Shown here one piece after another: positions 144 to 15,527 of a DNA stretch of 47,554 nt. Made by a program: the position numbers and the translations under genes. The stretch is from positions 1 to 47,554 of the forward strand of contig JARFTZ010000058.1 of assembly GCA_029289235.1 (NCBI GenBank). The letters run 5' to 3'. The stretch comes from Gammaproteobacteria bacterium. GTDB lineage: Bacteria > Pseudomonadota > Gammaproteobacteria > Burkholderiales > Rhodocyclaceae. The notes beneath the pieces are model-generated. The model was not told the DNA's origin and did not search any database. It saw only the letters and a list, made by a program, of their open reading frames with translations. Numbering within the stretch: the first letter of the stretch is position 1; every line of letters begins with the position of its first letter.

Positions 144-1154
144 TCACAAGCGAACCAGCTGATTCGTTTCAAACGCCTCCTTGCACAGATAGGCGATCTG
201 AGTGCATTTGGTACCGTCATAGACGCTGACCTCGGGCTTGCGGCCTTCGTTGATGCAGCGGACGAACTCGACCATTTCGTTGCGGTAGGCGTCGCCGAAG
301 CGTTCCAGGAAGTCCTGCGAGCATTCCCGGCGGACGCCCTGCGGATCGAGGATCTCGACCAGGTTTTTTTGCGGCACCGAGGCGATGCGCAACGTTCCCT
401 GCGTGCCGATGATCTCGGTTTCCACGTTGTAGCCGTGCGGCGCGGTGCGTCCGGCGAAGAGGAAGACCATCGCGTCATTCTCCAGCTGCATCAGGGCGGC
501 GACGTTGTCGCCATCCTTGTACTGGCCGAACTCGGGGTGCGCGTAGCAGCCGCCGATGGCGAAGATGGTCTTGGGGTCGGCCCCCATGAACCAGCGGGCC
601 AGGTCGATGTCATGGACCGCCATGTCAATGAACTGCCCGCCCGAATGCCCGGCATAGGCGATGGCCCCTGCAATCGCGCGCTCCGGGTCCTGGCTGTAGC
701 CGCGGAAGAGGATCGGCTTGCCGATCTGCCCTTCGGCGACCATTTTCTTGGCGTAGGCATACGAGGGGTCGTAGCGGCGCATGAAGCCGAGCATGAACAC
801 CCGCTCCGGAAAACGCGCCACCGCTGCTTCGGCAATGCGGCACTCGTCGACCGTGGTGCCCAGGGGCTTTTCGCTGAACACGTGCAGGCCGCGTTCCAGC
901 GCGGCGGCAATCTGCGCGGTATGCAGGTGCGATGGCGAGGTGATGACCACCGCGTCGAGTCCGTCCCCGGCAATCATCGCCTCGAAGTCGGCGTACGTCC
1001 GCTTGACTCCCCACGCGGTCGCCGTCGCCCTGAGTTTTTCCTCGTTGGCGTCGCACAGGGCGACCAGTTCCACGCCCGGGATGGCAAAGCGCAGGTTCCA
1101 CGCATGCTGGTAGCCCAGGCGGCCAAGTCCGATGGCGCCGATCCTGACAGTCAT
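144..1154 (-). CDS. iolG: Inositol 2-dehydrogenase, Gfo/Idh/MocA family
   Basis: This 336-residue protein should oxidise myo-inositol to 2-keto-myo-inositol (scyllo-inosose) with NAD+, the first cytoplasmic step of inositol breakdown. The N-terminus has the Rossmann motif GAIGLGRLG (residues 6-14) and an acidic residue after the second strand (Asp35). The family's catalytic set is present: Lys96 in SEKPLG, and Asp177 and His181 in FIDMAVHDID, matching the Lys/Asp/His triad of Bacillus IolG. The start follows a GGAGG at good spacing that overlaps the permease stop codon, so it is the last gene of the ABC transporter operon. Linkage to iolD, iolE and iolB on the other arm supports inositol as substrate. 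A scyllo-inositol dehydrogenase or another sugar dehydrogenase of the same family cannot be excluded. Confidence 0.88.
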   Translation of the reverse strand: MTVRIGAIGLGRLGYQHAWNLRFAIPGVELVALCDANEEKLRATATAWGVKRTYADFEAMIAGDGLDAVVITSPSHLHTAQIAAALERGLHVFSEKPLGTTVDECRIAEAAVARFPERVFMLGFMRRYDPSYAYAKKMVAEGQIGKPILFRGYSQDPERAIAGAIAYAGHSGGQFIDMAVHDIDLARWFMGADPKTIFAIGGCYAHPEFGQYKDGDNVAALMQLENDAMVFLFAGRTAPHGYNVETEIIGTQGTLRIASVPQKNLVEILDPQGVRRECSQDFLERFGDAYRNEMVEFVRCINEGRKPEVSVYDGTKCTQIAYLCKEAFETNQLVRL

Positions 1155-1164
1155 TTTCCGCCTC

Positions 1165-2148
1165 CTATTTCTTCTTGGCGTTCTTGCGCATGTCGATCAC
1201 GACGGCGGTGACGATGATGGCGCCCTTGATGATCTGCTGCCAGTAGGCGGAAACGCCCAGCAGGTTCAAGCCGTTGTTGAGCACGCCGAGAATCAGCGCA
1301 CCGACGACCGCTCCCTGGATCGTCCCGATCCCGCCAGAGTGGCTCGTTCCGCCGATGGTCGTCGCCGCGATCGCATCGAGTTCGTACGCGACCCCCATGC
1401 CCGGCTGCCCGGTATTGAGGCGCGCCGAGAGCATCAGGCCGGCCACCCCTGCGAGCATCCCCGCATACATGTAGATCTTGACCAGATTACGCCCGACATT
1501 GACGCCGGAAACCTCGGCCGCGACGATGTTTCCGCCGATTGCGTAGATGTTCTTGCCGAATTTTGTGTGGTTCAGGACCACCCAGGTAATCAGCGCCAGC
1601 ATGAAGAACAGGATGACAGGAACGGGAACGCCGAAGACGTACCCTTGACCGATGAACTGGTACGACGCGGTCAGTGTGCTGACCGGACGGCCGTCGGAAT
1701 ACAGCAGGGCCAACCCACGTACCGAGACGTAGGTTCCCAGCGTGGCGATGAAGGCGGGAATGCCGGTCTTGGCGACCAACAGGCCGTTGACCATGCCAAC
1801 GAGCGTGCCCACGCCGAGGGCGACGAGAATCGGGACGATCACCGGCAGTTCCGGCAGCGAGGGGTACATCTTGGCCGCCCAGTCGCCGGCCTGGCCGAAA
1901 CTCGCGGCCATGACCGCGCACAAGGCCAGCGTCGAACCACTCGACAGGTCGATGCCCTTGGAGATGATCACCAGCGTGACACCGAGCGAAATCACGCCGA
2001 TCACCGAGACCTGGCGCACCACGTTGAGCAGATTGTCCTGCGAAAGAAACACCGGCGACAGGAAGCTCATGATTATGACCATGACCACCAGAACCAGGTA
2101 GATCCCGTACTTGCCGAAAAACTGCTTGATGTTTTCCTTGCCGTTCAT
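1165..2148 (-). CDS. iatP: Inositol/ribose-type ABC transporter permease
   Basis: This 327-residue polytopic membrane protein is an RbsC/MglC-type permease (BPD_transp_2 family) of a carbohydrate importer. The sequence begins with a short cytoplasmic stretch followed by a first hydrophobic helix (about residues 15-32) and continues with repeated hydrophobic segments. It contains the family's loop GVNVGRN...IYMYAGMLAGVAG, which contacts the ATPase, followed by the conserved TIGGTSHSGGIGTIQGA segment. It ends with a basic tail (KNAKKK). It sits between the ATPase gene (53-base gap) and iolG. The arrangement binding protein, ATPase, permease matches the Caulobacter ibpA-iatA-iatP inositol transporter, hence the symbol. 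Substrate assignment rests on context. Confidence 0.85.
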   Translation of the reverse strand: MNGKENIKQFFGKYGIYLVLVVMVIIMSFLSPVFLSQDNLLNVVRQVSVIGVISLGVTLVIISKGIDLSSGSTLALCAVMAASFGQAGDWAAKMYPSLPELPVIVPILVALGVGTLVGMVNGLLVAKTGIPAFIATLGTYVSVRGLALLYSDGRPVSTLTASYQFIGQGYVFGVPVPVILFFMLALITWVVLNHTKFGKNIYAIGGNIVAAEVSGVNVGRNLVKIYMYAGMLAGVAGLMLSARLNTGQPGMGVAYELDAIAATTIGGTSHSGGIGTIQGAVVGALILGVLNNGLNLLGVSAYWQQIIKGAIIVTAVVIDMRKNAKKK

Positions 2149-2201: not shown

Positions 2202-3704
2202 TTACGGTTTCATGGTGGCGTATTTCATGACCACTTCCTGCGTTGCGTCCTTGCGCTCGACGATTCCCGTCAGTCTTCCTTCGCGCATCACCGCAATCCG
2301 GTCACTCATGCCGAGAATTTCGGGAAGCTCCGAAGACACCAGGATGATCGCCTTCCCCTTCGCCGCCAGGTTGGTAATCAGCGTATGGATTTCCGCCTTG
2401 GCGCCGACGTCGATCCCCCGCGTCGGTTCATCGAGGATCAGGATTTCCGGCTCCGACATCAGCCAGCGGGCGACCAGGACTTTCTGCTGATTGCCGCCGG
2501 AGAGGTTCATGATCTTCTGCTCGAGGCTCGGCGTCTTGATCTTGATCTTGTGCCGATACTCGCCGCACTCGTTGCGAATCTGGGCATGGTTGAGAAATTT
2601 GCCAAGGCGGTTGCGATAGCGGTCGATGACCGCCATGATCATGTTGTCCTTGATGTCGAGCATCGGGAAGATGCCGGACAACCGCCGGTCTTCGGTCAGG
2701 AGCGCCATCTTGTGCCTGATCGCGTCCTCCGGAGCACGGATATCCACCGGCTTGTCATCGATCAGCACGCTGCCTGCGCTTTTATGGCGGATGCCGAAGA
2801 GCGTTTCCATCACTTCCGTGCGCCCGGCGCCGACCAGGCCGGCAAAACCGAGAATTTCGCCCTTGCGCACCGCGAACGAAACGTCCTGGAACGCCCCGGG
2901 GCTCGACAGGTTCTTCACCTCCAGCTTGACGTCGGTGATCGGGCACTCGACCTTCGGGAACATCTCGTTCAGTTCCCGCCCGACCATCAGCGCAATCAGC
3001 TTGTCGGTGTTCAGTTCGGCGGCCGGATAGGTACCGACGTAATTGCCGTCGCGCAAGACGCTCACTTCGTCGGAAATGGCGAAGATTTCATCCATCTTGT
3101 GCGAGATATAGATGATCGCCTTGCCTTGCTCCCGCAGCCGCCGGATGATCCTGAACAGATGCTCGACCTCGCCCTTGGTGAGCGATGAGGTCGGCTCGTC
3201 CATGATCACCACGTCCGCATTGTAGGACACGGCCTTGGCGATCTCGACCATCTGCATTTTGGCGACGGTGAGCTTGGCCATCTCGATGCGCGGATCGATC
3301 GAGAGCTCCAGATCGTCGAGCAGACGCTTGGTGTCGTCATGCATCTTGCGATGATCGACGAACGGCGTGCCCTTGATCAGCGGCTCTCTCCCGAGCCAGA
3401 CGTTTTCCATCACCGAACGGTGCGGGACGGGCGACAGCTCCTGGTGGATCATCGCAATGCCAAGCCGGATCGACTCGATCGGCGCGTTGAACTCGGTCTC
3501 GACGCCCTTGTACAGGACGATCCCTTCCGTCGGCTTGTACATCCCGCTGAGGATCTTCATCAACGTCGATTTCCCGGCCCCGTTTTCCCCCATCAGGGCG
3601 TGCACGCTCCCTGGCCGGAACCTGAGGGATATTCCATCGAGCGCGACAACGCCGGGGAACACCTTCCGGATGCCGCGTGTTTCCAACACATACTCGTTAG
3701 CCAT
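2202..3704 (-). CDS. iatA: Inositol/ribose-type ABC transporter ATP-binding protein (two ATPase domains)
   Basis: This 500-residue protein is an RbsA/MglA-type ATPase with two fused nucleotide-binding domains, which powers sugar uptake through the adjacent permease. Domain 1 has an intact Walker A (GENGAGKST, near residue 40), a Walker B ending VIMDEPTSSL, and an H-loop (YISHKMDE). Domain 2 has the degenerate Walker A typical of this family (GLVGAGRTE), a signature LSGGNQQK and Walker B ILILDEPTRG. ATG at 3704 is preferred over an in-frame TTG six bases upstream because AGGG precedes it at normal spacing. It follows the binding-protein gene after an intercistronic stem-loop, which is usual where the binding protein must be made in excess. 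Confidence 0.88.
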   Translation of the reverse strand: MANEYVLETRGIRKVFPGVVALDGISLRFRPGSVHALMGENGAGKSTLMKILSGMYKPTEGIVLYKGVETEFNAPIESIRLGIAMIHQELSPVPHRSVMENVWLGREPLIKGTPFVDHRKMHDDTKRLLDDLELSIDPRIEMAKLTVAKMQMVEIAKAVSYNADVVIMDEPTSSLTKGEVEHLFRIIRRLREQGKAIIYISHKMDEIFAISDEVSVLRDGNYVGTYPAAELNTDKLIALMVGRELNEMFPKVECPITDVKLEVKNLSSPGAFQDVSFAVRKGEILGFAGLVGAGRTEVMETLFGIRHKSAGSVLIDDKPVDIRAPEDAIRHKMALLTEDRRLSGIFPMLDIKDNMIMAVIDRYRNRLGKFLNHAQIRNECGEYRHKIKIKTPSLEQKIMNLSGGNQQKVLVARWLMSEPEILILDEPTRGIDVGAKAEIHTLITNLAAKGKAIILVSSELPEILGMSDRIAVMREGRLTGIVERKDATQEVVMKYATMKP

Positions 3705-3777
3705 ACTCAACCCTGATTCAAGTTGGAACCTGTTTCGTGAGCCGACCCGCAGGTTTTCCGGGTTGCACGAGCGACAA

Positions 3778-3814: not shown

Positions 3815-4732
3815 CTATTTCTTGAATTGCGCGAGGTTTTCCGGTGTCACGAGCTTGAACGGAATCCAGTTTTCTTTCGGCACTTTTTCGCCCTTCACTG
3901 CCTTGACGGCGACTTCGACACCGCCGCCGCCCTGGCCGGCGGCATCCTGGAACACCGTTGCGGCGAGCTCGCCCTTGGATACCGAGGTCAGGGCATCGGG
4001 CGTGGCATCAACGCCGAGGACAATGACGTCGGTACGCTTCTTGTCCTTGAGCGCCTGGATGGCGCCGAGCGCCATGTCGTCGTTGTTGGCGAGGATGGCC
4101 TTGAGATCCTTGCCGAAGCGGTTGAGCCAGTCCTCGGTCTTGGCGAGGCCTTCGTTCCGTTGCCACTGGCCGGTCTGCTTGTCGAGGATCTTGATGCCCG
4201 GATACTTGTTCTTCTGGACTTCTTCATTGCCGGCAGTGCGCTTCAGGGCGCCTTCGTTGTCCAGCTTGCCCATCAGGATGGCGACGTTGCCCTTGCCCCC
4301 GAGTTTCTCGCCGAGGAATTCCATTTGCAGGCGACCGGCGACGATCTCTTCCGAACCGACGTAGTAAGCGCCATCGGGCAGATTGCCCGGATTGCGGTTC
4401 ACATAAACCGCCTTGATGTTCTTCGCCAGGATGTTCTTGGTCATCGGGGCGGTGGCGCTGGTGTCGACCGGAACAACGATGATCGCATCCATCTTCTGGA
4501 CGATGAAATTCTCGACCTGATCGAGCTGTTTCGCCATGTCCTCCTTGGCATCGGTAAATGTCAGCTCAACGGCATCCGGATTCGCTTTTGCGTAGGCTTT
4601 CATTCCGTCCATCATGTAGGTCAGGAACGTATCGTCGAAGTTGGCGATCGAAACGCCCACCTTGACGGGAGCAGCAAAGGCCATGGTGGATGCCACGAGA
4701 AGCGCGGCGCCAGACAGCAGAATCTTTTTCAT
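3815..4732 (-). CDS. ibpA: Periplasmic inositol/sugar-binding protein
   Basis: This 305-residue protein is a type I periplasmic binding protein (ribose/galactose/inositol-binding group). The chosen start gives a classic signal peptide (MKKILLSGAALLVASTMAFA, cleavage after AFA), and GAGGGG lies 9 bases upstream. The longer open frame to 4822 lacks such a signal. The mature part opens with VKVGVSIANFDDTF and has the family's hinge and ligand motifs, including DAIIVVPVD, YVGSEE, ILANNDDMALGA and VLGVDATPDAL. It resembles Caulobacter IbpA, the myo-inositol-binding protein, in overall sequence. It is followed by iatA, iatP and iolG in one leftward operon. The ligand is inferred from the flanking iol genes. 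Confidence 0.85.
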   Translation of the reverse strand: MKKILLSGAALLVASTMAFAAPVKVGVSIANFDDTFLTYMMDGMKAYAKANPDAVELTFTDAKEDMAKQLDQVENFIVQKMDAIIVVPVDTSATAPMTKNILAKNIKAVYVNRNPGNLPDGAYYVGSEEIVAGRLQMEFLGEKLGGKGNVAILMGKLDNEGALKRTAGNEEVQKNKYPGIKILDKQTGQWQRNEGLAKTEDWLNRFGKDLKAILANNDDMALGAIQALKDKKRTDVIVLGVDATPDALTSVSKGELAATVFQDAAGQGGGGVEVAVKAVKGEKVPKENWIPFKLVTPENLAQFKK

Positions 4733-4960: not shown

Positions 4961-6070
4961 TCACTTCTTCTTGTCGGGGTTGGGGATCATGGCGTCGCGC
5001 ACGATCCCGAGCAGTTCGTGGTAGTGCTCGCAGAACACCCGCAGGGTCCGGGCCGTCGCCCCGAACGTGCCGAACTCCGCGACGCTCATCCCGTTTTCGT
5101 CGTAAGCGCGGCGGAAATCGGGGACCATTGAATACAGTTCATCGACAATCTCGGGAGCGACCGGCAGGTGCATGCGCTCCTTGACCTCGACCTTCGACTT
5201 GTTGAACAGGACCTGCCAGTCGTAGGGGATCGTCAGGATGACATCGCCGCCGATGAACTGCGACCAGTGCAGATGATTGCGGTAGGCGGCTGAGAGCAGG
5301 CGGGTACGATAATCACGTTCTTTGTATAGGGTATAGGCCTTTTTGAAGGCGGCGACGCCGGCCCAGTCGGCATAGCCCGGCGTCAGGAGCGTTCCGTCGC
5401 GGGCCGTCGCAACTTTCATCCAGTCATCGAGACGGCCGACCATGATGGTGCAGGCGGGATGAATATGATCGACAGCCTTCCCTTCCTGCTCGCGACGTTT
5501 CAATCCGCGCTCGACGGCCTCGGCGACAGCGATGGCCTGTGGCACCGTGAAGGAAACAGTCGCGTTGATGGTAACCCCCTGATAGGTAGCCTCCTCCAGC
5601 GCGACAACCCCCGCCGCCGTGACCGGGATCTTGACCTGGATGTTCGGCGCCAGGCTATCGAAATGAACCGCCTGCTCCACGAGCGCACGGGCGTCGCGAT
5701 AGTACGTCGGACTCGTCTGCATGGACAGACGCCCCTTCCGCCCGTTTTCCCGCTCGAAGACCGGCAGAAGCATGGCCGCGCCCTTGATGCCCATTTCCTC
5801 GATCAGGCGCCAGGCGATCTTGTCTTCGCTCCACGTCGGATTGCTCTCGATGATGCCGCAAAGCGTGTCTTTCCACGCCGCATATTCCTTCTTCAGCACG
5901 TTGAGGACGATGCTCGGGTTGGTCGTTGCCCCGACCGCGCCGTTGCGGACCGCATACGCCAGTTCATCGCTGCCGCACGAATCGTTCCAGTAGTCGGTCG
6001 GCGTCGAATGGGTGGTTCGATAGAGTGGACTCTGCGTGTCGTATTCCTGGGGTGCGGTGCGGGTGTTCAT
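4961..6070 (-). CDS. Transaldolase-family aldolase linked to inositol catabolism
   Basis: This 369-residue class I (Schiff-base) aldolase of the transaldolase family is much longer than transaldolase B (about 317) or fructose-6-phosphate aldolase (about 220). Visible active-site elements are Asp30 (NDSCGSD), Asn51 (TTNPSIV), the Schiff-base Lys147 in VKIPVTAAG, Asn169 (TINATVSF) and GRLDDW (212-217). At the position of transaldolase B Glu96, in a conserved GRL context, it has Gln118, as in FsaA (Gln59). The VKIPVTAAG segment is also FSA-like. The residue matching TalB Phe178/FsaA Tyr131 appears to be Met210. ATG at 6070 has AAAGG 9 bases upstream, better than an in-frame ATG at 6100. It is divergent from iolDEB and precedes the inositol transporter. 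I infer that it acts on 2-deoxy-5-keto-gluconate, but ordinary transaldolase or another ketose substrate remains possible. Confidence 0.75.
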   Translation of the reverse strand: MNTRTAPQEYDTQSPLYRTTHSTPTDYWNDSCGSDELAYAVRNGAVGATTNPSIVLNVLKKEYAAWKDTLCGIIESNPTWSEDKIAWRLIEEMGIKGAAMLLPVFERENGRKGRLSMQTSPTYYRDARALVEQAVHFDSLAPNIQVKIPVTAAGVVALEEATYQGVTINATVSFTVPQAIAVAEAVERGLKRREQEGKAVDHIHPACTIMVGRLDDWMKVATARDGTLLTPGYADWAGVAAFKKAYTLYKERDYRTRLLSAAYRNHLHWSQFIGGDVILTIPYDWQVLFNKSKVEVKERMHLPVAPEIVDELYSMVPDFRRAYDENGMSVAEFGTFGATARTLRVFCEHYHELLGIVRDAMIPNPDKKK

Positions 6071-6547
6071 CGTGCTCAGCCTTTCAATGGAGTCATTCAA
6101 CGTGCTGGGGCGCCTGTTACGGGGACGCCGAAGCTGCCCTCGCCTTGCTTCTGGTGATTTCTTTTTTTTGGGTTATCTCTTCATGAACCCCTCCGGAAGA
6201 AACCGGAGGAAACCGGCGTGTTCGACAAAACAATAGGCATTCTAAAAATTATTGTCAATAGAAAATTATTTCTTTTTACACGACGAACCGTTGGTCACCC
6301 GCCCACTGAAACAGCTTTCCGGCCTACCGAGGGAGATAGTTGAAAAAAACTTAACATGTTGTTATTTCAACACTTTCAAAACCGTTTAGAAGACAATCGC
6401 AACCAATGGAAAGTTATTTCTAAACATAATAAGTTATTGAAATTTTAATTGCACTCCACAGCGAAGCGCGTTATCTTTATCCGGAATCCGGCAGTTCACG
6501 TCGAACACGCGACGTTGCCGAGAAACAACGACCAGGGGAGGAAACCA
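6071..6547. promoter_or_regulatory. Divergent iol control region
   Basis: This 477-bp stretch between the transaldolase-family gene and iolD has no credible gene. Its right half (about 6210-6450) is far richer in A and T than the flanking genes. It contains repeated octamers: ATTATTTC at 6265, GTTATTTC at 6361 and 6413, and GTTATTGA at 6433. The copy at 6361 sits in TGTTG-N6-CAACA, an inverted repeat. A 7-bp hairpin (CCTCCGG 6190-6196 / CCGGAGG 6203-6209) lies in the leftward leader. The repeats are candidate operators for an inositol-responsive regulator not encoded here. I could not assign -35/-10 boxes with confidence. Confidence 0.5.
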
Positions 6548-8401
6548 ATGGCAACGATTCGTTTGACGATGGCACAGGCGCTGGTGCGCTATCTCTCGGC
6601 CCAGAAGGTGGCAACGACCACCGGAACCGAGCCGCTCTTCGGTGGCGTCTGGGCCATATTCGGGCACGGGAACGTAGCCGGTCTGGGAGAGGCGCTGTAC
6701 GCGGCGCGCGACGTCCTGCCGACCTACCGGGCGCACAACGAGCAGGGCATGGCCTTGGCCGCCACGGCCTTCGCCAAGGCGCATTTCCGGCGCCGCCTGA
6801 TGGCAGTCACGACCTCCATCGGTCCCGGCTGTACCAATCTGGTGACGGCGGCGGCGACGGCGCACGTCAATCGCCTGCCGATGCTGCTGCTTCCCGGCGA
6901 CATTTTCGTTTCCCGCGATCCCGATCCGGTACTGCAGCAGGTCGAGGACTTCCAGGACGGCGGCGTTTCCGCCGTCGACTGCCTGCGCCCGGTGTCGCGT
7001 TACTTCGACCGGATCGTCACGCCGCATCAACTGCTTTCGGCGCTGCCGCGGGCGATGGCGATATTCTCCGACCCGGCCCTTTGCGGACCGGTCACCCTGG
7101 CGCTCCCGCAGGACGTTCAGGCCATGGCAGCCGACTGGCCGGAGGAGTTTTTTGCCGAACGCATCGTCGAATTCCGCCAGCCGCCGGCCGCCCCCCGGCA
7201 ACTGGCCGCAGCCGCCGCGATCCTGAAAACGGCGAAGCGCCCCCTGATCGTCTGCGGCGGCGGCGTGCTTTACAGCGAGGGAGGCTGCGAAGCGTTACAG
7301 CGCTTCTCCGAACGCCACGGCATCCCCATCGGCGAAACCCAGGCCGGCAAGGGCGCGTTGGCGTGGGATCACCCCTTCGTTTCGGGCGCAATTGGCGTCA
7401 CCGGCACACCGGCGGCGAATGCACTCGCCGCGGAGGCCGATGTCGTTCTGGCCGTCGGCACGCGGCTGCAGGACTTCACGACCGGATCGCATACGCTCTA
7501 TGCCAACGCCAGGCTCATCTCGATCAACGTCAACACATTCGACGCGATCAAATGGGGCGGACAAAGCGTCCAGGGCGACGCCGCACTCTCGCTCGACGCG
7601 CTGACTTCAGCGCAACCCGACTGGAAATCCGACGACAGCTGGCAGGCCCGGGCCCGGCAACTCAACGCGGAATGGCGCCATGCAATCGGCGACATCGTGC
7701 ATAGTTCCCGCGCCGATCTGCCGACCTACGCCGAAGTCATCGGCGCCATTCAGGACTCCTCGCCCGATTCGTCGTCGAAGGATATCGCCGTCTGCGCGGC
7801 GGGAACGCTGCCCGCCGAACTGCACAAACTGTGGCGATCCTCCGTTCCCGGAGGCTATCACATGGAATACGGCTATTCCTGCATGGGCTACGAGATCGCC
7901 GGCGGACTGGGCGTGAAAATGGCCCGCCCCGACCGCGAAGTCATCGTCATCGTCGGCGACGGCAGCTACCTGATGCTCAACAACGAACTGGCCACCTCGG
8001 TCATGCTCGGACAGAAGATCATCGTCGTGGTCACCGACAATTTCGGCTACGCCTGCATCACCCGCTTGCAGAAGGCCTGCGGTGGCGCGCCGTTCAACAA
8101 CATGTTCGAGGATTGCCTGCAGGCGCCCGGCGGCATGCCGACGATCGACTTTGCCGCCAACGCGCGCTCGCTCGGCGCGAAGGCCGAAAGCGTGAAGAGC
8201 ATTACCGATCTTGGCGAAGCCATGAAACGCGCCCGCGCGTCGGACACCTCCTACCTCATCAGCATCGTCATCGACGGCCCGCAAAGCACGCCGGAAGGCG
8301 GTTGCTGGTGGGAAGTAGGAATTCCCGAAGTATCCTCACGACCTGCCGTCGTGGCCGCCCGACAACAGCTTGAGGCAGAGAAGAAAAAACAGCGGATTTG
8401 A
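6548..8401 (+). CDS. iolD: 3D-(3,5/4)-trihydroxycyclohexane-1,2-dione hydrolase
   Basis: This 617-residue thiamine-diphosphate enzyme opens the ring of trihydroxycyclohexane-1,2-dione to give 5-deoxy-glucuronate, the third step of inositol breakdown. It has the three-domain layout of the acetolactate-synthase superfamily. The N-terminal pyrimidine-binding domain has HNEQGMALAA around residue 60, including the catalytic Glu. The central domain runs from about residue 215. The C-terminal domain has the ThDP/Mg motif GDGSYLMLNNE followed by TDNFGYACI, and the family-typical GGCWWEVGIPEVS near the end. ATG at 6548 follows GGGGAGG at ideal spacing, whereas the open frame extends to 6449 without similarity. 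It is the first gene of the rightward iolDEB operon. Confidence 0.93.
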   Translation: MATIRLTMAQALVRYLSAQKVATTTGTEPLFGGVWAIFGHGNVAGLGEALYAARDVLPTYRAHNEQGMALAATAFAKAHFRRRLMAVTTSIGPGCTNLVTAAATAHVNRLPMLLLPGDIFVSRDPDPVLQQVEDFQDGGVSAVDCLRPVSRYFDRIVTPHQLLSALPRAMAIFSDPALCGPVTLALPQDVQAMAADWPEEFFAERIVEFRQPPAAPRQLAAAAAILKTAKRPLIVCGGGVLYSEGGCEALQRFSERHGIPIGETQAGKGALAWDHPFVSGAIGVTGTPAANALAAEADVVLAVGTRLQDFTTGSHTLYANARLISINVNTFDAIKWGGQSVQGDAALSLDALTSAQPDWKSDDSWQARARQLNAEWRHAIGDIVHSSRADLPTYAEVIGAIQDSSPDSSSKDIAVCAAGTLPAELHKLWRSSVPGGYHMEYGYSCMGYEIAGGLGVKMARPDREVIVIVGDGSYLMLNNELATSVMLGQKIIVVVTDNFGYACITRLQKACGGAPFNNMFEDCLQAPGGMPTIDFAANARSLGAKAESVKSITDLGEAMKRARASDTSYLISIVIDGPQSTPEGGCWWEVGIPEVSSRPAVVAARQQLEAEKKKQRI

Positions 8402-8446
8402 AGCGAACGGACAAGACAATCAACGCATTGATCACATGAGGCAAAC

Positions 8447-9352
8447 ATGGGAAAACTTCAGGTAAGAATCGGCATCAACCCGATTTCATGGACCAACGAT
8501 GACCTGCCGCAGCTCGGCGGCGATACGCCGCTGGAAACCTGTCTGGCCGAGGGCTCCGAAATCGGCTACGAGGGGTTCGAACTGGGCAACAAGTTCCCGA
8601 AGGATCCGGAGCAACTGAAGGCGAAGCTGGCCGGCTACGGCGCGGTGGTCGTCTCGGGCTGGTACTCCGGCACGCTGGCGGAGAACAGCCTCGAACATGA
8701 AATCGAAGCCGTACAGGCGCACATGAAGAAACTGGTGCACAACGGCTGTGCCGTGATGGTCTACGGTGAAGTCGCCGGTTCCGTGCAGGGCCAGCAGCAG
8801 ACGCCGCTGTCGCGCCGCCCGCGCTTCCCCGGCATGGCCCAGTGGGAAGCCTACGCCAAGAAGCTCGACGCCTTTGGCGCCTATCTCAAGTCACACGGCA
8901 TCACCCTCGCCTACCATCACCACATGGGCGCGTACTGCGAAAGCCCGCAGGATCTCGACACCCTGATGCAGCTCACCAGCCCCAACGTCGGTTTGCTGTT
9001 CGACACGGGACACATCACGTTCGCCGGCGGCGACGCGCTGACCGAACTGCGGAAGCACATCGACCGCGTCGTCCATGTGCATTGCAAGGACGTGCGCCAG
9101 AACGTCATGCTGAAGGCGCGCAACAACGACCAGAGCTTCCTCAACTCCGTGCTCGACGGCGTCTTCACCGTTCCCGGCGACGGCATGATCGACTTCGGCC
9201 CGATTCTCCAGGAACTCGCCTACCACGACTATGCCGGCTGGCTGGTCGTCGAGGCCGAACAGGATCCCGCCGTGGCACCGAGCTACGAATACGCCAAGAA
9301 GGGCTACGACACACTGGCCGGACTGGTCAGGAAGATCAACGGAGCAAAGTGA
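8447..9352 (+). CDS. iolE: Inosose dehydratase (2-keto-myo-inositol dehydratase)
   Basis: This 301-residue TIM-barrel protein of the xylose isomerase-like superfamily should dehydrate scyllo-inosose to trihydroxycyclohexane-1,2-dione, the substrate of IolD. Family markers include the N-terminal GINPISWTNDDLP, the barrel segments GYEGFELGNKFP and LAYHHHMGAYCE, LLFDTGHITFAGGD (metal-ligand strand), VVHVHCKDVR and the C-terminal VVEAEQDPA. GAGG precedes the ATG at 6 bases. It lies 45 bases after iolD, and its stop codon overlaps the ribosome-binding site of iolB, indicating tight co-translation. Confidence 0.93.
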   Translation: MGKLQVRIGINPISWTNDDLPQLGGDTPLETCLAEGSEIGYEGFELGNKFPKDPEQLKAKLAGYGAVVVSGWYSGTLAENSLEHEIEAVQAHMKKLVHNGCAVMVYGEVAGSVQGQQQTPLSRRPRFPGMAQWEAYAKKLDAFGAYLKSHGITLAYHHHMGAYCESPQDLDTLMQLTSPNVGLLFDTGHITFAGGDALTELRKHIDRVVHVHCKDVRQNVMLKARNNDQSFLNSVLDGVFTVPGDGMIDFGPILQELAYHDYAGWLVVEAEQDPAVAPSYEYAKKGYDTLAGLVRKINGAK

Positions 9353-9362
9353 GGAGGCGCGC

Positions 9363-10154
9363 GTGAGCAAGTTATTGGTCAAGGCCCGCAAGGGCAAGGA
9401 GATCGCCTCCGTCACGCCGGCGTCGGCGGGCTGGGAGTACGTTGGCTTCGCCGCCTACCGGCTGCAACCGGGTGAGTCGGTCGAGTTCGAAGATCCGGCG
9501 CGCGAGGCGTGCCTCGTCGTCCTCGCCGGCAAGGCCGCGGTACGGGCCGGCGCGCTCGACTGCGGCGAACTCGGCACGCGCGAAAGCGTTTTCGACGACA
9601 AGGCCCCGGATGCCGCCTACGTGCCGAACGGCAGCAAGGTGAGCGCCACGGCGGTGACCGCCTGCGAGATCGCCATCGCCCATGCGCCCGGTTTCGGCAA
9701 CCACCCGGCGCGCGTGATCCGCGGCGAGAGCATCCACCGCTCGGTGCGCGGCAGCGGCAGCAACACCCGCTACGTCACCGACATCCTGCCGGCCGACCAG
9801 CCGGCCGACAGCCTGCTCGTCGTCGAAGTCGTCACGCCGTCGAGCCACTCGTCAAGCTACCCGCCGCACAAGCACGACACCGACAACCTGCCGAACGAGA
9901 GTTCCCTCGAAGAGACCTACTACCATCGGCTCAACCCGCCACAAGGGTACGTCCTGCAGCGCGTCTATACCGATGATCGCAGTCTCGACGAGGCGGTCGC
10001 GGCCGAGGACCACGACGTGGTGATGGTTCCGCGCGGCTACCATCCGGTAACCGTGCCGCACGGCTACACCTCCTACTACTTCAACGTGATGGCCGGCCCG
10101 AAACGCGACTGGGTATTCAAGAACGACCCGGCGCACGAATGGATGCTCAAGTGA
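9363..10154 (+). CDS. iolB: 5-deoxy-glucuronate isomerase
   Basis: This 263-residue bicupin-type enzyme isomerises 5-deoxy-glucuronate to 2-deoxy-5-keto-gluconate (DKG). The open frame runs back to 9231 inside iolE, but the GTG at 9363 is chosen. It follows GAGGAGG (9351-9357), which overlaps the iolE stop, and gives the expected length and N-terminus (SKLLVKARKGKE). The cupin metal-binding signature is seen in SYPPHKHDT and in the downstream Glu of SSLEETYYHRL. The conserved VMVPRGYHPV lies near the end. It is the last gene of the iolDEB operon. The product, DKG, would normally go to the kinase IolC, which is not in the window. Confidence 0.93.
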   Translation: MSKLLVKARKGKEIASVTPASAGWEYVGFAAYRLQPGESVEFEDPAREACLVVLAGKAAVRAGALDCGELGTRESVFDDKAPDAAYVPNGSKVSATAVTACEIAIAHAPGFGNHPARVIRGESIHRSVRGSGSNTRYVTDILPADQPADSLLVVEVVTPSSHSSSYPPHKHDTDNLPNESSLEETYYHRLNPPQGYVLQRVYTDDRSLDEAVAAEDHDVVMVPRGYHPVTVPHGYTSYYFNVMAGPKRDWVFKNDPAHEWMLK

Positions 10155-10160
10155 TATTGC

Positions 10161-10186
10161 CGTGGCGCCGCAGCAGCGGCGCCACG
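10161..10186. terminator. Perfect 11-bp hairpin after iolB
   Basis: CGTGGCGCCGC (10161-10171) pairs perfectly with GCGGCGCCACG (10176-10186) around AGCA, six bases after the iolB stop. It lies between convergent iolB and the phosphate-transporter gene. No strong U-run follows on either side, so it may block read-through in both directions by stem stability alone. Confidence 0.6.
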
Positions 10187-10224
10187 AGCGAATCAATTCA
10201 CACGGCAAGCCTCAGCCCCGGCAA

Positions 10225-11820
10225 TCAGGGCAGCATCATGCCCCTGATCGTGAAATACAGCATCGCGGCCATCAGGGCCGACGCTGGCACGGTGATCACC
10301 CACGCCGCCGCGATGCGGATAACCTGTGAACGCTTGACGAGTTCGCGCTTGTGCAGTTTCTTCAAGCCCTTGCGCTCGTCCTTGGAAACAATGCCCGGCG
10401 CAGCAGCAGTGTTTCCCCGTGCCTTGAGTTCACGCAGCATCGCTCCTTTTTCCTGGATTGAGGCCTTTTCAAACTCCTCTACGAACGCGGCGATCGCAGC
10501 GGCCCCTTCACCGGCGTGGTGCGCATGGATTTCGGCCAGCATGCGATCGTAGTTGGTCTTGAGATACTCCCGCAGAAACCCGACGCCAAATACGCCACCC
10601 ACGGCGATGTGCGTGGAACTGACGGGCAATCCCAACTGGCTGGCCACAATCACGGTAATCGTCGCTCCCATGGCGATGCAATACGCACGCATCTGGTCCA
10701 GTTCGGTGATTTCAGAGCCAACAGTTTTGATAACCTTGGGACCAAAAAGCACGAGGCCAAACGAAATACCGACCGCCCCGAGCATCATCACAAAGAGGGG
10801 GATCGGTGCGGATTTGCCGATCGAACCGCTACCTGCAATGATATCGACGATCGCCGCCAATGGACCGATCGCATTGGCCACATCATTCGAACCGTGGGCA
10901 AAACTCAACAATGCCGCGGCAAAGATCAGGGGAACGTTGAACAGTCGATTCACGCTCTCCTTGGTGTTTGAAGCGAGACCACCATTGTGGCTCAGCCTTT
11001 TCCGCACGATGAAGAATACCGCCGCACCTGCAAGCAGGCCATACACGGCCGCGGCAACGAAACCCACTTTCCAGATCTTGCTCAACCCTTTCAGCAACAG
11101 ATAGCAGGTGAAAATCGCAACCATCAGTCCGACGAGAAGCGGAACCGTACGGCATGCCGCATCGCTCATATCCTGCTGATAGGTGATGCTGCGCTTGATC
11201 AGATAGAGGAAGGCCGCCGCGAAAAAAGCCCCGAGGACCGGCGAGATAACCCAACTCGCCGCGATGCTGCCCATCGTCGCCCAATTGACGATCTCCGGCC
11301 CGGCCGCAGCCGCTCCCGCACCCAGCACAGCGCCGACGATCGAGTGCGTGGTCGATACCGGCGCGCCGACCGCCGTGGCGATGTTCAGCCAAAGCGCTCC
11401 AGCGAGCAAAGCAGCGAGCATCAACCAGACAAACACGCTCGAACTTGGGATGAGATCGGGGTTGATGATTCCGCTGCGGATAGTCCCAACAACCTCTCCG
11501 CCTGCAATCAGCGCCCCGGCAGCTTCAAAAATGGCCGCAATTGCCAACGCGCCGCCCATCGTCAGCGCCTTGGAACCGACCGCCGGGCCCACGTTGTTGG
11601 CAACGTCGTTGGCGCCGATGTTCATGGCCATGTAGCCGCCGATCGCAACGGCCACAAGGAAAAACAGATTCGGCTGGGCGGTGCCATAGCGCGCGGAGTA
11701 ATAAACAGCGGCGGCGATAAAAACCGCCCCCACGACAAGACGCGACAAGTCTCGAAAAACCGAACGAGACTTCCCCACGTCAGGACCGGCCTGAACGGAT
11801 TCCTTTTTAGTGCCTGGCAT
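10225..11820 (-). CDS. Inorganic phosphate transporter, PiT family
   Basis: This 531-residue polytopic membrane protein carries both duplicated PiT signature motifs, GANDVANNVGPAVGSKAL near residue 68 and GSNDVANAIGPLAAI near residue 310. These define cation-coupled, low-affinity phosphate uptake. A basic, soluble segment (about residues 435-500, rich in Lys/Arg/Glu) interrupts the C-terminal helices, as in longer bacterial PiT proteins. AGGGAG precedes the ATG. It is the last leftward gene before the convergent iol operon, 77 bases beyond the exonuclease stop. No PhoU-like DUF47 partner gene is adjacent. Sulfate permease activity, known for a subset of PiT homologues, cannot be ruled out. 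Confidence 0.85.
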   Translation of the reverse strand: MPGTKKESVQAGPDVGKSRSVFRDLSRLVVGAVFIAAAVYYSARYGTAQPNLFFLVAVAIGGYMAMNIGANDVANNVGPAVGSKALTMGGALAIAAIFEAAGALIAGGEVVGTIRSGIINPDLIPSSSVFVWLMLAALLAGALWLNIATAVGAPVSTTHSIVGAVLGAGAAAAGPEIVNWATMGSIAASWVISPVLGAFFAAAFLYLIKRSITYQQDMSDAACRTVPLLVGLMVAIFTCYLLLKGLSKIWKVGFVAAAVYGLLAGAAVFFIVRKRLSHNGGLASNTKESVNRLFNVPLIFAAALLSFAHGSNDVANAIGPLAAIVDIIAGSGSIGKSAPIPLFVMMLGAVGISFGLVLFGPKVIKTVGSEITELDQMRAYCIAMGATITVIVASQLGLPVSSTHIAVGGVFGVGFLREYLKTNYDRMLAEIHAHHAGEGAAAIAAFVEEFEKASIQEKGAMLRELKARGNTAAAPGIVSKDERKGLKKLHKRELVKRSQVIRIAAAWVITVPASALMAAMLYFTIRGMMLP

Positions 11821-11897
11821 TAAATCTCCCTGTCATTTCCAAACTCAAGTACATCAACAGCAATAAGCAGCACGGTGGTGCGACAATCAGTTTCGGC

Positions 11898-12692
11898 CTA
11901 TCCGGCCCACGCCGCCAGGAACTCTCCCCAGTGCGGCTTGTTCAGTTTCCCCAGTTCGTCACGCACGAAGGCTATTTCCGCATCGTATTCGCCACGCGAC
12001 ATCTCGCCGCGCATCAGCCGGAAACGCAGGAACACCAGGTAGGTGTTCATCACGTCGGTTTCGCAGTAGTCGCAGATGCCGGCAATCTCACCGCTCTGCC
12101 ATGCCTCCCAGACCTTGCTGCCGTCCATGCCAAGCTTGCCGGGGAAGCCGATCAGCTTGGCGAGGTCGTCGAGCGGCGCGTTGGCGCGCGGCTGATACAG
12201 GGCCAAGAGGTCCATCAGGTCGAGATGGCGGGTGTGGTAGCGGCTGATGTAGTTGTTCCACTTGAAGTCGCGGCTGTCGTTGTAGTCGCCGTCGCCAAGA
12301 TCCCAGTAGCGAGGGGCGACAACGCCGTGGATCAGCCCGCGGTAGTGGAGCACCGGCAGGTCGAAGCCGCCGCCGTTCCACGAGACGATTTGCGGCGTGA
12401 ATTTCTCGACGCCGTCAAAGAAGCGCTGGATGATTTCAGCTTCACTTTGCTCCGGCTCGGCCAGCGACCACACGCGCAGATCCTTGCCGGCGCGCAGGAC
12501 GCACGAGATGACGGCGACGCGCTGCAGGTAATGCGGCAGGAAGTCGCTGCCGTTCTGCGCCCGCCGCTGCTGGAAGGCCATTTCCGCCACTTCGGCGTCG
12601 GACAGCGCCGGATCGAGGTCGTGCAAACGCCGCAGGCCCGGCACATCGGGGATCGTCTCGATATCGAAGATCAGGACAGGCTTCACGCTCAT
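11898..12692 (-). CDS. DEDDy-type 3'-5' exonuclease related to the PolB proofreading domain
   Basis: This 264-residue protein matches the stand-alone family of predicted 3'-5' exonucleases related to the proofreading domain of family B DNA polymerases (PF10108). Exo motif I is FDIETIPD (Asp10, Glu12), motif II lies in IVSWNGGGFDLPVL, and motif III is YCETD (Tyr-X3-Asp), which places it in the DEDDy class. The polymerase domain is absent. The start at 12692 overlaps the cysM stop by four bases (ATGA). A longer open frame running back into cysM has no support. The biological role of these proteins in DNA or RNA processing is not settled. Confidence 0.83.
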   Translation of the reverse strand: MSVKPVLIFDIETIPDVPGLRRLHDLDPALSDAEVAEMAFQQRRAQNGSDFLPHYLQRVAVISCVLRAGKDLRVWSLAEPEQSEAEIIQRFFDGVEKFTPQIVSWNGGGFDLPVLHYRGLIHGVVAPRYWDLGDGDYNDSRDFKWNNYISRYHTRHLDLMDLLALYQPRANAPLDDLAKLIGFPGKLGMDGSKVWEAWQSGEIAGICDYCETDVMNTYLVFLRFRLMRGEMSRGEYDAEIAFVRDELGKLNKPHWGEFLAAWAG

Positions 12693-13588
12693 GCCGGGAA
12701 GACGCCTGTTGAAAGATAACGGTCGCCGCGGTCGCAAACGATCGTCGCGATCGTTGCGTTGCTGACCTCGGCGGCCAAACGCAAAGCCACGGCCACCGCA
12801 CCACCGGACGAAATCCCGGCGAAGATCCCCTCCTCGCTGGCCAGGCGGCGCGTCATTTTCTCTGCCTCGCCTTGAGAAATCGCTTCGACACGGTCGACCA
12901 ACGTACGATCGAAGATTTTCGGCAGGTACGCTTCCGGCCACTTGCGGATACCGGGAATCTGCGAGCCGTCCTCGGGCTGGCAGCCGACGATGCAGACAGC
13001 AGGGTTCTGTTCCTTGAGATAGCGCGAAACGCCCATGATCGTGCCGGTGGTGCCCATGCTGCTGACGAAATGGGTGACGCGCCCTTCGGTGTCGCGCCAG
13101 ATTTCCGGGCCGGTGCCCTCGTAATGCGCCAAGGGGTTGTCCGGATTGGCGAACTGGTCGAGGATCACGCCCTTGCCTTCGTCGCGCAGTTTCTCGGCGA
13201 CGTCGCGCGCGAGTTCCATGCCGCCGTCGCGCGGGGTGAGCACCAGCTCCGCGCCGAAGGCTCGCATGGTCTGGCGGCGCTCGATGCTCTGGTTCTCCGG
13301 CATGACCAGGATCATGCGGTAGCCACCCATCGCCGCGGCCATGGCCAGCGCGATGCCGGTGTTGCCGGAAGTCGCCTCGATCAGCGTATCGCCCGGCTTG
13401 ATGTCACCTCGCCGCGCTGCGCGCGTGATCATCGACAGCGCCGGCCTGTCCTTGACCGACCCGGCCGGGTTGTTGCCTTCCAGCTTGGCCAGGATGACGT
13501 TGCCGCGCGCCTCGACCTCCTTGCCCGGCAGGCGCTTCAGGCGCACCAGCGGCGTGTTGCCGACGTAGTCCTCGAGCGTCTTATACAT
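12689..13588 (-). CDS. cysM: Cysteine synthase B (O-acetylserine/thiosulfate sulfhydrylase)
   Basis: This 299-residue PLP enzyme makes cysteine from O-acetylserine and sulfide, and as CysM typically also S-sulfocysteine from thiosulfate. The PLP lysine is Lys46 in [11 protein letters not shown]. The phosphate/substrate loop [12 protein letters not shown] and the glycine-rich [11 protein letters not shown] loop near the C-terminus are intact. The length and the [15 protein letters not shown] stretch favour CysM over CysK. The start lies eight bases inside hldD, and the 3' end overlaps the exonuclease gene, so all three are probably translationally coupled. Confidence 0.92.
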
Positions 13589-14585
13589 GGCGGTTCAACC
13601 ATTGCACGTACTGCGCCACGCCTTCCTCGACACTGGCGAACGGGGCGTCGTAGCCGGCCTGGCGCAGCTTGGTGAGATCGGCCTGGGTGAAGCTCTGGTA
13701 CTTTCCTTTCAGCGCCTCTGGGAAGGGGATGTATTCGATGAGGCCTTGCCCCAGCAGTGCGTCGAGCGGTTCCGCCGCCTTGCCCTGCAGGACGCGACAG
13801 CTGTTGACGTTGGCCGCGGCGAGTTCATTGAAGCTTTGCGCCCGGCCGGTGCCGACGTTGAAGATGCCTGATTTGTCCGGATGATCGAGGAAGAACAGAT
13901 TGACCTTGGCCACATCGCCGACATAGACGAAATCGCGCTTCTGCTCGCCGTTAGCGTAGCCGTCGCAGCCCTCGAACAACTTGACCTTGCCTTCGGTGCG
14001 AAACTGGTTGTAGTGGTGGAAGGCCACCGACGCCATGCGTCCCTTGTGCGATTCGCGCGGACCGTAGACGTTGAAATAGCGGAAGCCGGCGATCTGCGAG
14101 TTGTTACCCTGCGCCTCCGCCAGGCGCTGGCGAACGATCTGGTCGAAAAGGAACTTGGAGTAACCGTATACGTTGAGCGGCCCCTCGCAGGCGCGCTCCT
14201 CGCGGAACTCGCTGCTGCCGCCATAAGTCGCCGCACTTGATGCGTAGAGAAACTGGACCTTCTGCTCCTGGCACCAGTCGAGCATGGCCAGCGAGTAGCG
14301 GAAGTTGTTTTCCATCATGTAATGGCCGTCCTGCTCCATGGTGTCGGAACAGGCTCCCTGATGCAGTACGGCATCGACGGCGCCGTCGAAATGACCGGCC
14401 AGCAGGCGTTCGATGAAACCTTCCTTGTCGAGATAATCGGCAATGTCGCAATCGACGAGGTTCTTGAATTTCTCGGCGCGCTTCAGGTTGTCGACGGCGA
14501 TGATCTTCGTGACGCCGCGCTCGTTCAACGCCTTGACGACATTCGCTCCGATAAAACCGGCGGCGCCGGTGACGATGGTGTACAT
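13581..14585 (-). CDS. hldD: ADP-L-glycero-D-manno-heptose-6-epimerase
   Basis: This 334-residue short-chain epimerase converts ADP-D-glycero- to ADP-L-glycero-manno-heptose, the precursor of the LPS inner core. It has the NADP-binding [11 protein letters not shown] motif at the N-terminus. The family's substrate stretch [14 protein letters not shown], the SSAATYGG segment, the catalytic YGYSK (Tyr-X3-Lys) and the conserved [20 protein letters not shown] are all present. It follows the kinase gene rfaE1 by nine bases and overlaps cysM by eight, so it is in the heptose/LapB operon. Confidence 0.95.
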
Positions 14586-14594
14586 GAGAACTCC

Positions 14595-15527
14595 TTATTT
14601 CAAAGCGGCCGCCAGTTCGTCGCGGGTAACGACTGCGGTCCCGAGTTTTCCGACAACGATGCCGGCAGCGACGTTCGCCACGTGAATCGCCGGTTCCCAG
14701 TCGGCGCCGCTGGCGAGCATCACTCCCAACGTCGCGATGACCGTATCGCCGGCACCGGACACGTCGAACACTTCCCGTGCCACGGCCTTTTCGTGAATCG
14801 CCCGGTCGGCGAGAAACAGTGACATCCCTTCCTCGCTGCGGGTGACCAGCAGCGCATCCAGTTGCAACTGCTCGCGCAATTCGGTGGCCTTGCGCTCCAG
14901 ATCGGCTTCATCCTTCCAGCGTCCGGCCACGTCGCGCATCTCGGAGCGATTCGGCGTCACCACCGTTGCCCCGGCATAGGCGGAATAATCGTCGCCCTTG
15001 GGATCGATCAGGACGATCTTTCCGGCCCCGCGCGCCAACGCGATCATTTCGCTGATATGTGTCAGCCCACCTTTTCCGTAGTCGGAAAAAACCACGGCGT
15101 CGCAATCCGGAAGGCGTTGCGCAAAATCTGCAAGCTTGGCGCGCAGAACTTCGTGAGACGGGCGATTTTCGAAGTCGATCCGCAAGAGCTGTTGCTGTCG
15201 CCCGATCACGCGCAGCTTGACCGTCGTCGACACCGCATCGTCGACGTGCAGGCTGGCATCGATCCCTCCGTCGCGCACCAGACGCGCCAGACTTTCGCCG
15301 GCTTCGTCCCTGCCGACCAGGGAAAGCAACGAAACACGCGCACCGAGTGCCGCCGCATTGCGCGCCACGTTGGCCGCCCCGCCCGGTCGCTCCTCGCAGC
15401 GCTCGACCCTGACGACCGGCACCGGCGCCTCCGGAGAGATGCGCGAGACATCACCGAACCAGTAGCGGTCCAGCATCACGTCACCGACAATCAGCAGTCG
15501 GACAGTGGAGAGATCAGGCAAAACCAT
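14595..15527 (-). CDS. rfaE1: D-glycero-beta-D-manno-heptose-7-phosphate kinase
   Basis: This 310-residue PfkB/ribokinase-family kinase phosphorylates heptose 7-phosphate at C1 in ADP-heptose synthesis. Domain markers are GDVMLDRYWFGDVSRISPEAPVPV at the N-terminus (interrupted here only by family-typical residues), GGAANVARN, and the PfkB C-terminal signature DVSGAGDTVIA with its catalytic Asp. Unlike Escherichia coli HldE it ends after the kinase domain. The adenylyltransferase half (RfaE2/HldC) must be encoded elsewhere, as is common in betaproteobacteria. ATG at 15527 was chosen because the 38 upstream codons lie inside lapB and have no similarity to the family. Confidence 0.92.
   Translation of the reverse strand: MVLPDLSTVRLLIVGDVMLDRYWFGDVSRISPEAPVPVVRVERCEERPGGAANVARNAAALGARVSLLSLVGRDEAGESLARLVRDGGIDASLHVDDAVSTTVKLRVIGRQQQLLRIDFENRPSHEVLRAKLADFAQRLPDCDAVVFSDYGKGGLTHISEMIALARGAGKIVLIDPKGDDYSAYAGATVVTPNRSEMRDVAGRWKDEADLERKATELREQLQLDALLVTRSEEGMSLFLADRAIHEKAVAREVFDVSGAGDTVIATLGVMLASGADWEPAIHVANVAAGIVVGKLGTAVVTRDELAAALK

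Follow-up and report, generated by a model that had tools for sequence, protein, structure and literature searches.

Phytate-derived inositol is abundant as a carbon source, and the established route for its breakdown runs through IolG, IolE, IolD and IolB, with malonate semialdehyde as a C3 product that is used by IolA. In Bacillus subtilis, Burkholderia and others these four enzymes, which the locus described here shares, stand upstream of IolC with IolJ or of an IolC-DUF2090 protein: 2-deoxy-5-keto-D-gluconate (DKG) is phosphorylated and then cut to dihydroxyacetone phosphate, unlike in the route that we propose below. The IolC-DUF2090 fusions have been put forward as DKG-phosphate aldolases from fitness data (excerpt of PMC9007349). 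IolC is one of four core genes in a large survey of genomes for inositol use (excerpt of PMC9430895), and therefore a bacterium that relies on a transaldolase may be classed as incomplete. For sulfofructose, an excerpt of PMC9594981 describes a transaldolase of the TAL/FSA fold which cleaves an anionic, unphosphorylated 2-ketose and transfers a three-carbon unit to glyceraldehyde 3-phosphate, which saves a kinase. At the level of titles and the opening lines of abstracts, we found no paper that joins the clade discussed here to inositol breakdown (PMC7736159, PMC3164627 and PMC12130570 hold both words), nor any biochemistry for this clade.

Our hypothesis is that the gene that we call tal belongs to a clade of enzymes that cleave unphosphorylated DKG, the product of IolB. 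Read from its C6 end, DKG is CH2OH-CO-CHOH-CHOH-CH2-COOH, and by Fischer projection both hydroxyl carbons should have the D-fructose configuration, so that a cut between C3 and C4 would give a dihydroxyacetone unit and malonate semialdehyde. Lys147 would form a Schiff base with DKG, the C3-C4 bond (in the same numbering) would be cut with release of malonate semialdehyde, and the bound dihydroxyacetone unit would pass, most likely to glyceraldehyde 3-phosphate, to yield fructose 6-phosphate. Malonate semialdehyde would go on to acetyl-CoA via IolA or, in some anaerobes, perhaps via an acylating aldehyde dehydrogenase and a carboxyltransferase. Phosphorylated DKG should not fit a site for dihydroxyacetone transfer, because its phosphate would sit on C1 of the ketose. 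In Chloroflexota, Acidobacteriota and some Spirochaetota the enzyme would take the place of IolC and of the aldolase that goes with it, while in the betaproteobacterial genus of the host its route would run parallel to that of IolC-DUF2090. We consider this proposal as a whole likely. The substrate, the products, the acceptor and the parallel role in the host are what we infer from the patterns described below; transfer of dihydroxyacetone rather than its release is weakly favoured.

The window, that is the whole stretch of 47,554 nucleotides that was analysed, is contig C58 of the host genome from base 1. Its open reading frames were listed to position 22,000, and the proteins encoded between 144 and 11,820 were scanned against protein families (Table 1).

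Table 1. Features of the tal/iol region, with positions in the window
Feature	Position	Strand	Basis or remark
iolG-like inositol 2-dehydrogenase	144..1154	-	TIGR04380 353.9 bits, cut-off 355; adjoins contig edge
ABC transporter permease, MglC/RbsC type	1165..2148	-	under curated cut-offs of specific models
ABC transporter ATPase, MglA/RbsA type	2202..3710	-	under curated cut-offs of specific models
Sugar/polyol ABC substrate-binding protein	3815..4732	-	RbsB/MglB-like, under curated cut-offs; start at ATG 4732 inferred
tal, transaldolase-family protein, proposed DKG-cleaving enzyme	4961..6070	-	PF00923, fold model, conserved residues
tal/iolD divergent promoter region	6071..6547		direct reading of the sequence
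Palindrome AGAAAATTATTTCT, possible operator (weak)	6260..6273		tal/iolD region; also in C47 iolG/iolA region
Palindrome GGAAAGTTATTTCT, imperfect second copy (weak)	6408..6421		tal/iolD region
iolD	6548..8401	+	TIGR04377 884 bits, cut-off 715; ATG 6548 preceded by GGGGAGGAAACC
iolE	8447..9352	+	TIGR04379 414 bits, cut-off 290
iolB	9363..10154	+	TIGR04378 323 bits, cut-off 205; GTG start at 9363 inferred

The minus-strand arm begins with tal, followed by the genes for the substrate-binding protein, the ATPase and the permease and by iolG; iolD, iolE and iolB lie divergently on the plus strand. This gene order, with tal heading an inositol-transporter arm opposite iolDEB, had been claimed in the sequence-only reading that preceded this work, and the order found here bears it out, with tal as a full-length open reading frame. 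The four inositol genes named there were also recovered, iolD, iolE and iolB over their cut-offs and iolG slightly under its own. We place the start of tal at ATG 6070, with GAAAGG upstream and a product of 369 amino acids; a longer form of 379 amino acids from a TTG at 6100 is possible. The 379-residue form matches PF00923 (TAL_FSA) with 129.8 bits (cut-off 27, E 1.7e-37). The AlphaFold2 model of tal has a mean pLDDT of 95.9 and its best Foldseek matches in the PDB are solved transaldolases (probability 1.00, about 20% identity). Membership in the transaldolase family, likewise claimed earlier, is upheld by the Pfam match, by the predicted TAL/FSA fold, a TIM barrel, and by a lysine at the Schiff-base position (Lys147). 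At the same time tal remains under the cut-offs for classical transaldolases (TIGR00874, 55.8 of 396.2 bits; TIGR00876, 77 of 233.75; PRK03343, 107.6 of 367) and for FSA (TIGR00875, 42.3 bits against 245.95).

Residues were compared among 80 proteins, the window protein and 79 relatives (L047 was dropped as mis-framed), with TalB-type positions set by alignment to the host genome's own canonical transaldolase, a 307.7-bit match on contig C46. Asp30, Asn51, Gln118, Lys147, Asn169, Arg213 and Arg264 are identical in all 80. The positions of the Schiff-base lysine, two asparagines and two phosphate-site arginines of TalB are thereby invariant, and the two-arginine anion site would suit both a donor with a carboxylate and an acceptor with a phosphate. 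The position of Glu96, which we take to be the catalytic glutamate of TalB and to correspond to Gln59 of FSA, is glutamine throughout the 80 proteins and glutamate in the host's canonical transaldolase. The position of TalB Phe178, presumably equivalent to FSA Tyr131, is Met210 in all 80, and that of TalB Ser226 is alanine in all 80. The invariant Asp30 ends the first model strand (residues 26-29), and the catalytic aspartate of TalB is presumably Asp17 at the end of strand 1; the alignment is unsure here and leaves Asp30 unpaired with the TalB residue.

These residues bear on two other readings. A paralogue of the pentose-phosphate transaldolase, brought under inositol control and rebalancing sugar phosphates from triose phosphate, would be expected to have the predicted fold and the Schiff-base machinery of transaldolases, as tal does. 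But a canonical enzyme is already encoded on C46, tal lies far under every curated transaldolase cut-off with glutamine for the catalytic glutamate in 80 of 80 proteins, and the tal-only operons without iolC described below would be left unexplained; in our opinion this is very improbable. The second reading is an FSA-like aldolase that would free both malonate semialdehyde and dihydroxyacetone from DKG, the latter to be phosphorylated by a dihydroxyacetone kinase. The glutamine shared by all 80 proteins, as in FSA (presumably Gln59), points in this direction, and so do the transaldolase variants E96Q and E96Q/F178Y, which the PDB includes by entry titles, and two Dak1 genes in the host genome. 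On the other hand, the Tyr131/Phe178 position is methionine in 80 of 80 and the phosphate-site arginines are retained. Furthermore, Dak1 was not found in 10 of 27 tal-bearing Chloroflexota, Levilinea included, which makes free dihydroxyacetone a less than obvious end product there; as a sign of the aldolase mode Dak1 proved uninformative and was set aside, being found in 17 of 27 tal versus 17 of 23 iolC Chloroflexota (p 0.55). We regard release by an FSA-like aldolase as unlikely, though the most serious of the alternatives, and continue with dihydroxyacetone transfer from DKG.

Is the association with inositol genes a property of the clade? Contigs were scanned with the tal protein alone, iol genes being irrelevant to the choice, and the best 80 of 124 matching stretches were analysed. 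Most records are metagenome-assembled genomes (MAGs). Neighbours were called by tblastn thresholds, with family models run on a few loci only, and a codon-usage gene caller was also used, which missed some genes, e.g. an iolG in L024. Among these best 80 of 124 loci, iolB was found in 40, iolD in 33, one or the other in 41 and iolE in 37; an IolA-type dehydrogenase in 23, an acylating aldehyde dehydrogenase in 6 and iolC in 4. A dehydrogenase was the sole marker in 9 more. On the same strand and within 400 bp of tal, the same 80 loci have matches to iolB (26), iolD (19) and iolA (12). The gene order is iolB-tal-iolD-iolG-iolA-iolE-iolG in the isolate Levilinea saccharolytica (L024), which is without IolC or DUF2090, iolB-iolD-tal-iolA-iolE-iolG in L017, and LacI-iolB-tal-iolD-iolA-iolE-iolG in L046, a Solibacter MAG of the Acidobacteriota. 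For L017 and L024 the IolA-type gene is over the TIGR01722 cut-off.

Where iolB and iolD are missing, tal can still be paired with genes suited to the proposed C3 product. In L068 and L082, without iolB or iolD, tal is paired with MMSDH-type genes. Two Spirochaetota loci read tal - acylating aldehyde dehydrogenase - acyl-CoA carboxyltransferase (PF01039) (L090, 7252-11495) and tal - carboxyltransferase (PF01039) (L081, 117-2901), and these genes could carry malonate semialdehyde via malonyl-CoA to acetyl-CoA. However, iolB, iolD and the dehydrogenase are all missing in 30 of the 80 loci, many of them on short contigs and a few with other iol genes. An SDR gene lies immediately next to tal in L048 and L085. 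In G359, a member of the host's genus, tal adjoins a TRAP transporter with a DctP match and an RpiR-like regulator, and 17 kb of sequence there yielded no recognisable iol gene. Given this TRAP context and the 30 loci, another sugar acid may be a substrate, for example a different 5-keto sugar acid giving a C3 semialdehyde, with inositol as one context of several. The 41 of 80 loci that have iolB or iolD, the recurrent pairing of tal with an IolA-type dehydrogenase and the mutual exclusion of tal and iolC in Chloroflexota (see below) all speak against this, and we find it improbable.

Mapped on the tree of tal, iol context changes 19 times versus 28 in shuffles, a count inflated by the truncation of contigs; it is clustered yet spread across many branches. 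In Actinomycetota, loci L049 and L066 have weak iolE or iolG matches only, and the IolC of G028 is a near miss (288 of 300 bits); replacement of IolC by tal is possible in this phylum, on thin evidence. A relative with 50% identity, annotated as a transaldolase family protein, lies on a Clavibacter michiganensis plasmid that is predicted to be mobilizable (NZ_CP021037.1, 30865-31953).

IolC itself was searched for in 50 genomes, namely the host genome and those of the 49 loci at which any iol gene, iolC included, was matched locally. L012, L072 and L089 are among the 49 wholly or partly owing to iolC, which biases the set against our finding. TIGR04382 is over cut-off in 9 of the 50 (G000, which is the host, G001, G002, G004, G016, G039, G045, G048 and G049); the other 41 genomes are without an IolC over this cut-off. 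IolC is present in all 8 proteobacterial and fusobacterial genomes and in 1 of the 42 others (G016, the Chloroflexi MAG of L032), and this split partly follows taxonomy. Lower-scoring PfkB relatives of IolC are found in all 50, and one of them, or a diverged DKG kinase elsewhere, could phosphorylate DKG. Pure replacement of iolC also does not predict that it lies next to tal, as it does in L012 and L013 (iolC then tal) and in L089 (tal then iolC).

A comparison within one phylum was made with 301 genomes of Chloroflexota, to which Levilinea belongs, profiled for the tal clade, iolC, iolD and iolB. The tal profile is found at 520 bits or more in 27 of them; three genomes at about 260 bits represent a sister family and were left out of this count. 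The sister family (L139/G185, L140/G277 and L141/G267) has glutamine in its AQVNP/GQVDP motifs. iolC is over cut-off in 23 of the 301, iolD is found in 72 (70 over cut-off) and iolB in 72 (67 over cut-off). We dropped iolD alone as a marker of the pathway. Homologues of it without iolB lie near genes of glycine cleavage in this phylum (L107/G118 and L111/G174, near P-protein genes, with no iolB or iolE recognised nearby), which makes iolD alone unsafe, and therefore iolB and iolD together were used.

Among the 46 Chloroflexota with both iolB and iolD, 16 have tal only, 22 have iolC only, none has both and 8 have neither (Fisher p 8e-7 for mutual exclusion, kinship ignored). With the weaker iolB matches removed, the figures for the remaining 45 are 16, 22, 0 and 7. 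Over all 301 genomes tal and iolB occur together in 20 (odds ratio 12, p 9e-9, kinship ignored); tal and iolC occur together in none, which is not significant alone (p 0.24). No IolC over cut-off is found in any of the 27 tal genomes, and 5 of these lack both iolB and iolD. At E 0.001, DUF2090 was not found in 26 of the 27 tal genomes (the exception, G180, is weak at 34.8 bits), nor in 22 of the 23 iolC genomes (again with a weak exception, G197, 20 bits); the aldolase of the iolC Chloroflexota may possibly be IolJ. Of the eight genomes with neither gene, two offer a lead: G298 has a near-miss iolC of 278 bits and G085 a short IolC-like piece adjoining iolE-iolD-iolB. A separate locus in this phylum (L117, G225, 5813-14652) has iolG, iolD and iolE beside a split transketolase and a gene resembling that of phosphoglycerate kinase, and iolB, iolC and tal are all under the thresholds used in G225. 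It is perhaps a transketolase-based inositol variant, an echo of the sulfo-transketolase pathway.

We now turn to the host, where the picture is different. Its genome (G000) is 3.8 Mb and 95% complete. The earlier observation that the window has no IolC kinase or IolA is correct for the contig only: in whole-genome searches, C58 gave neither an IolC over cut-off nor any match to DUF2090 or of the IolA type. The same searches found on contig C47 a bifunctional IolC-DUF2090 kinase/aldolase (NF047869, 956 bits, cut-off 600; PF09863, 424 bits), a second IolG (408 bits), an IolA/MMSDH-type dehydrogenase (TIGR01722, 545 bits, cut-off 448.5) and an RpiR-like regulator under cut-offs. With these genes on C47 the host need not use a kinase-free route, and the occurrence of IolC-DUF2090, IolG and IolA together rules that route out as its only one; a dependence of the host on it, as implied in the sequence-only reading, must be given up. 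The idea that the transaldolase stands in place of IolC thus survives at the family level, through the 41 of 50 genomes without IolC and the exclusion in Chloroflexota, and fails for the host genome. Similarly, the survey of tal beside iol genes that was suggested there supports it, 41 of 80 loci having iolB or iolD and 41 of 50 genomes lacking an IolC over cut-off; the IolC of the host and of seven other members of its genus goes the other way.

Given the genes on C47, it could be argued that the host degrades inositol solely via IolC-DUF2090 and that its tal is redundant or a decaying acquisition. The genus member G370, in which tal is fragmented and one of the matches is interrupted by a TGA, would fit with this. 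However, the open reading frame in the window is intact and keeps all clade-invariant residues, and tal lies inside the iol operons of genus members L158, L159 and L161. We therefore consider such redundancy improbable.

A search of 148 relatives found tal confined to the genus, where 10 of 28 genomes have it, that of the host among them, with fragments in G351 and G370; a match of 215 bits in G366 is at the level of the sister family and was not counted. Leaving out G365 (59% complete), iolC is present in 8 of the 10 genomes with tal and in none of the 17 without it. The two tal genomes without iolC are G359 and G370, and G373 has iolC without DUF2090. G354 and G350 have a tal-iolG-iolD-iolE-iolB-iolA cluster; iolC shares the contig in G354, at a distance of about 13 kb, and is on a different one in G350. 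The order in G361 and G364 is iolC then tal. L072 and the genus member G349 are apparently one and the same, iolC having an equal place and score in both. Just upstream of tal in the iol cluster, L158 has a gene for a methyl-accepting chemotaxis protein (5668-7371), which suggests inositol taxis, and in L161 a gene of 572 amino acids at 2328 is placed like it. The two routes look complementary in the genus, as the acceptor of the transaldolase could come from the triose phosphate that the IolC route yields.

For an operator shared by the two contigs we have a weak hint. Matches to the AT-rich palindrome of Table 1 number 3 in the window versus 1.05 expected, and 3 in 20 kb of C47 versus 0.37, the counterpart on C47 (L100, 12135-12177) being in the iolG/iolA promoter region. 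The hint is weak because conservation of the palindrome across the genus was not found. A search of the iol promoters for GGAA-N6-TTCC, the RpiR/IolR motif, was negative.

Taking all of this together, the family-level claim, that a transaldolase clade goes with inositol genes and substitutes for IolC in part of its range, appears well supported by genomics. The fuller statement is in our opinion probable on balance: that several phyla finish inositol breakdown without a kinase, converting DKG to malonate semialdehyde and fructose 6-phosphate, with IolC and its aldolase replaced in many Chloroflexota, Acidobacteriota and some Spirochaetota and both routes side by side in the host's genus. If confirmed, this would give the transaldolase fold a further enzyme function, fill a gap in a pathway of uncultured Chloroflexota and provide the trick of sulfoglycolysis with a carboxylate counterpart. 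The cultured Levilinea saccharolytica KIBI-1 makes the proposal directly testable.

How does tal compare with the known enzymes? With TalA/TalB and the transaldolases of the Corynebacterium/Neisseria type it has in common the predicted fold and the positions of the lysine, the two asparagines and the two arginines. It differs from classical transaldolases in having glutamine for the catalytic glutamate, and its 369 residues compare with about 316-360 in solved chains. With FSA (TalC) it shares glutamine at the acid/base position, but FSA is about 220 residues long and presumably has Tyr131 where tal has methionine. Similarity to the 226-residue chain of BmSF-TAL falls short of full length, as tal matches 69 of its residues (E 8.6e-8). 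Even so, the sulfoglycolytic enzymes SftT/SqvA and BmSF-TAL would be the closest working model by analogy, since the reaction proposed for tal is likewise a transfer that spares a kinase; the proposed substrate and product differ from those of the sulfoglycolytic transaldolase, and the neighbours of tal are iol genes.
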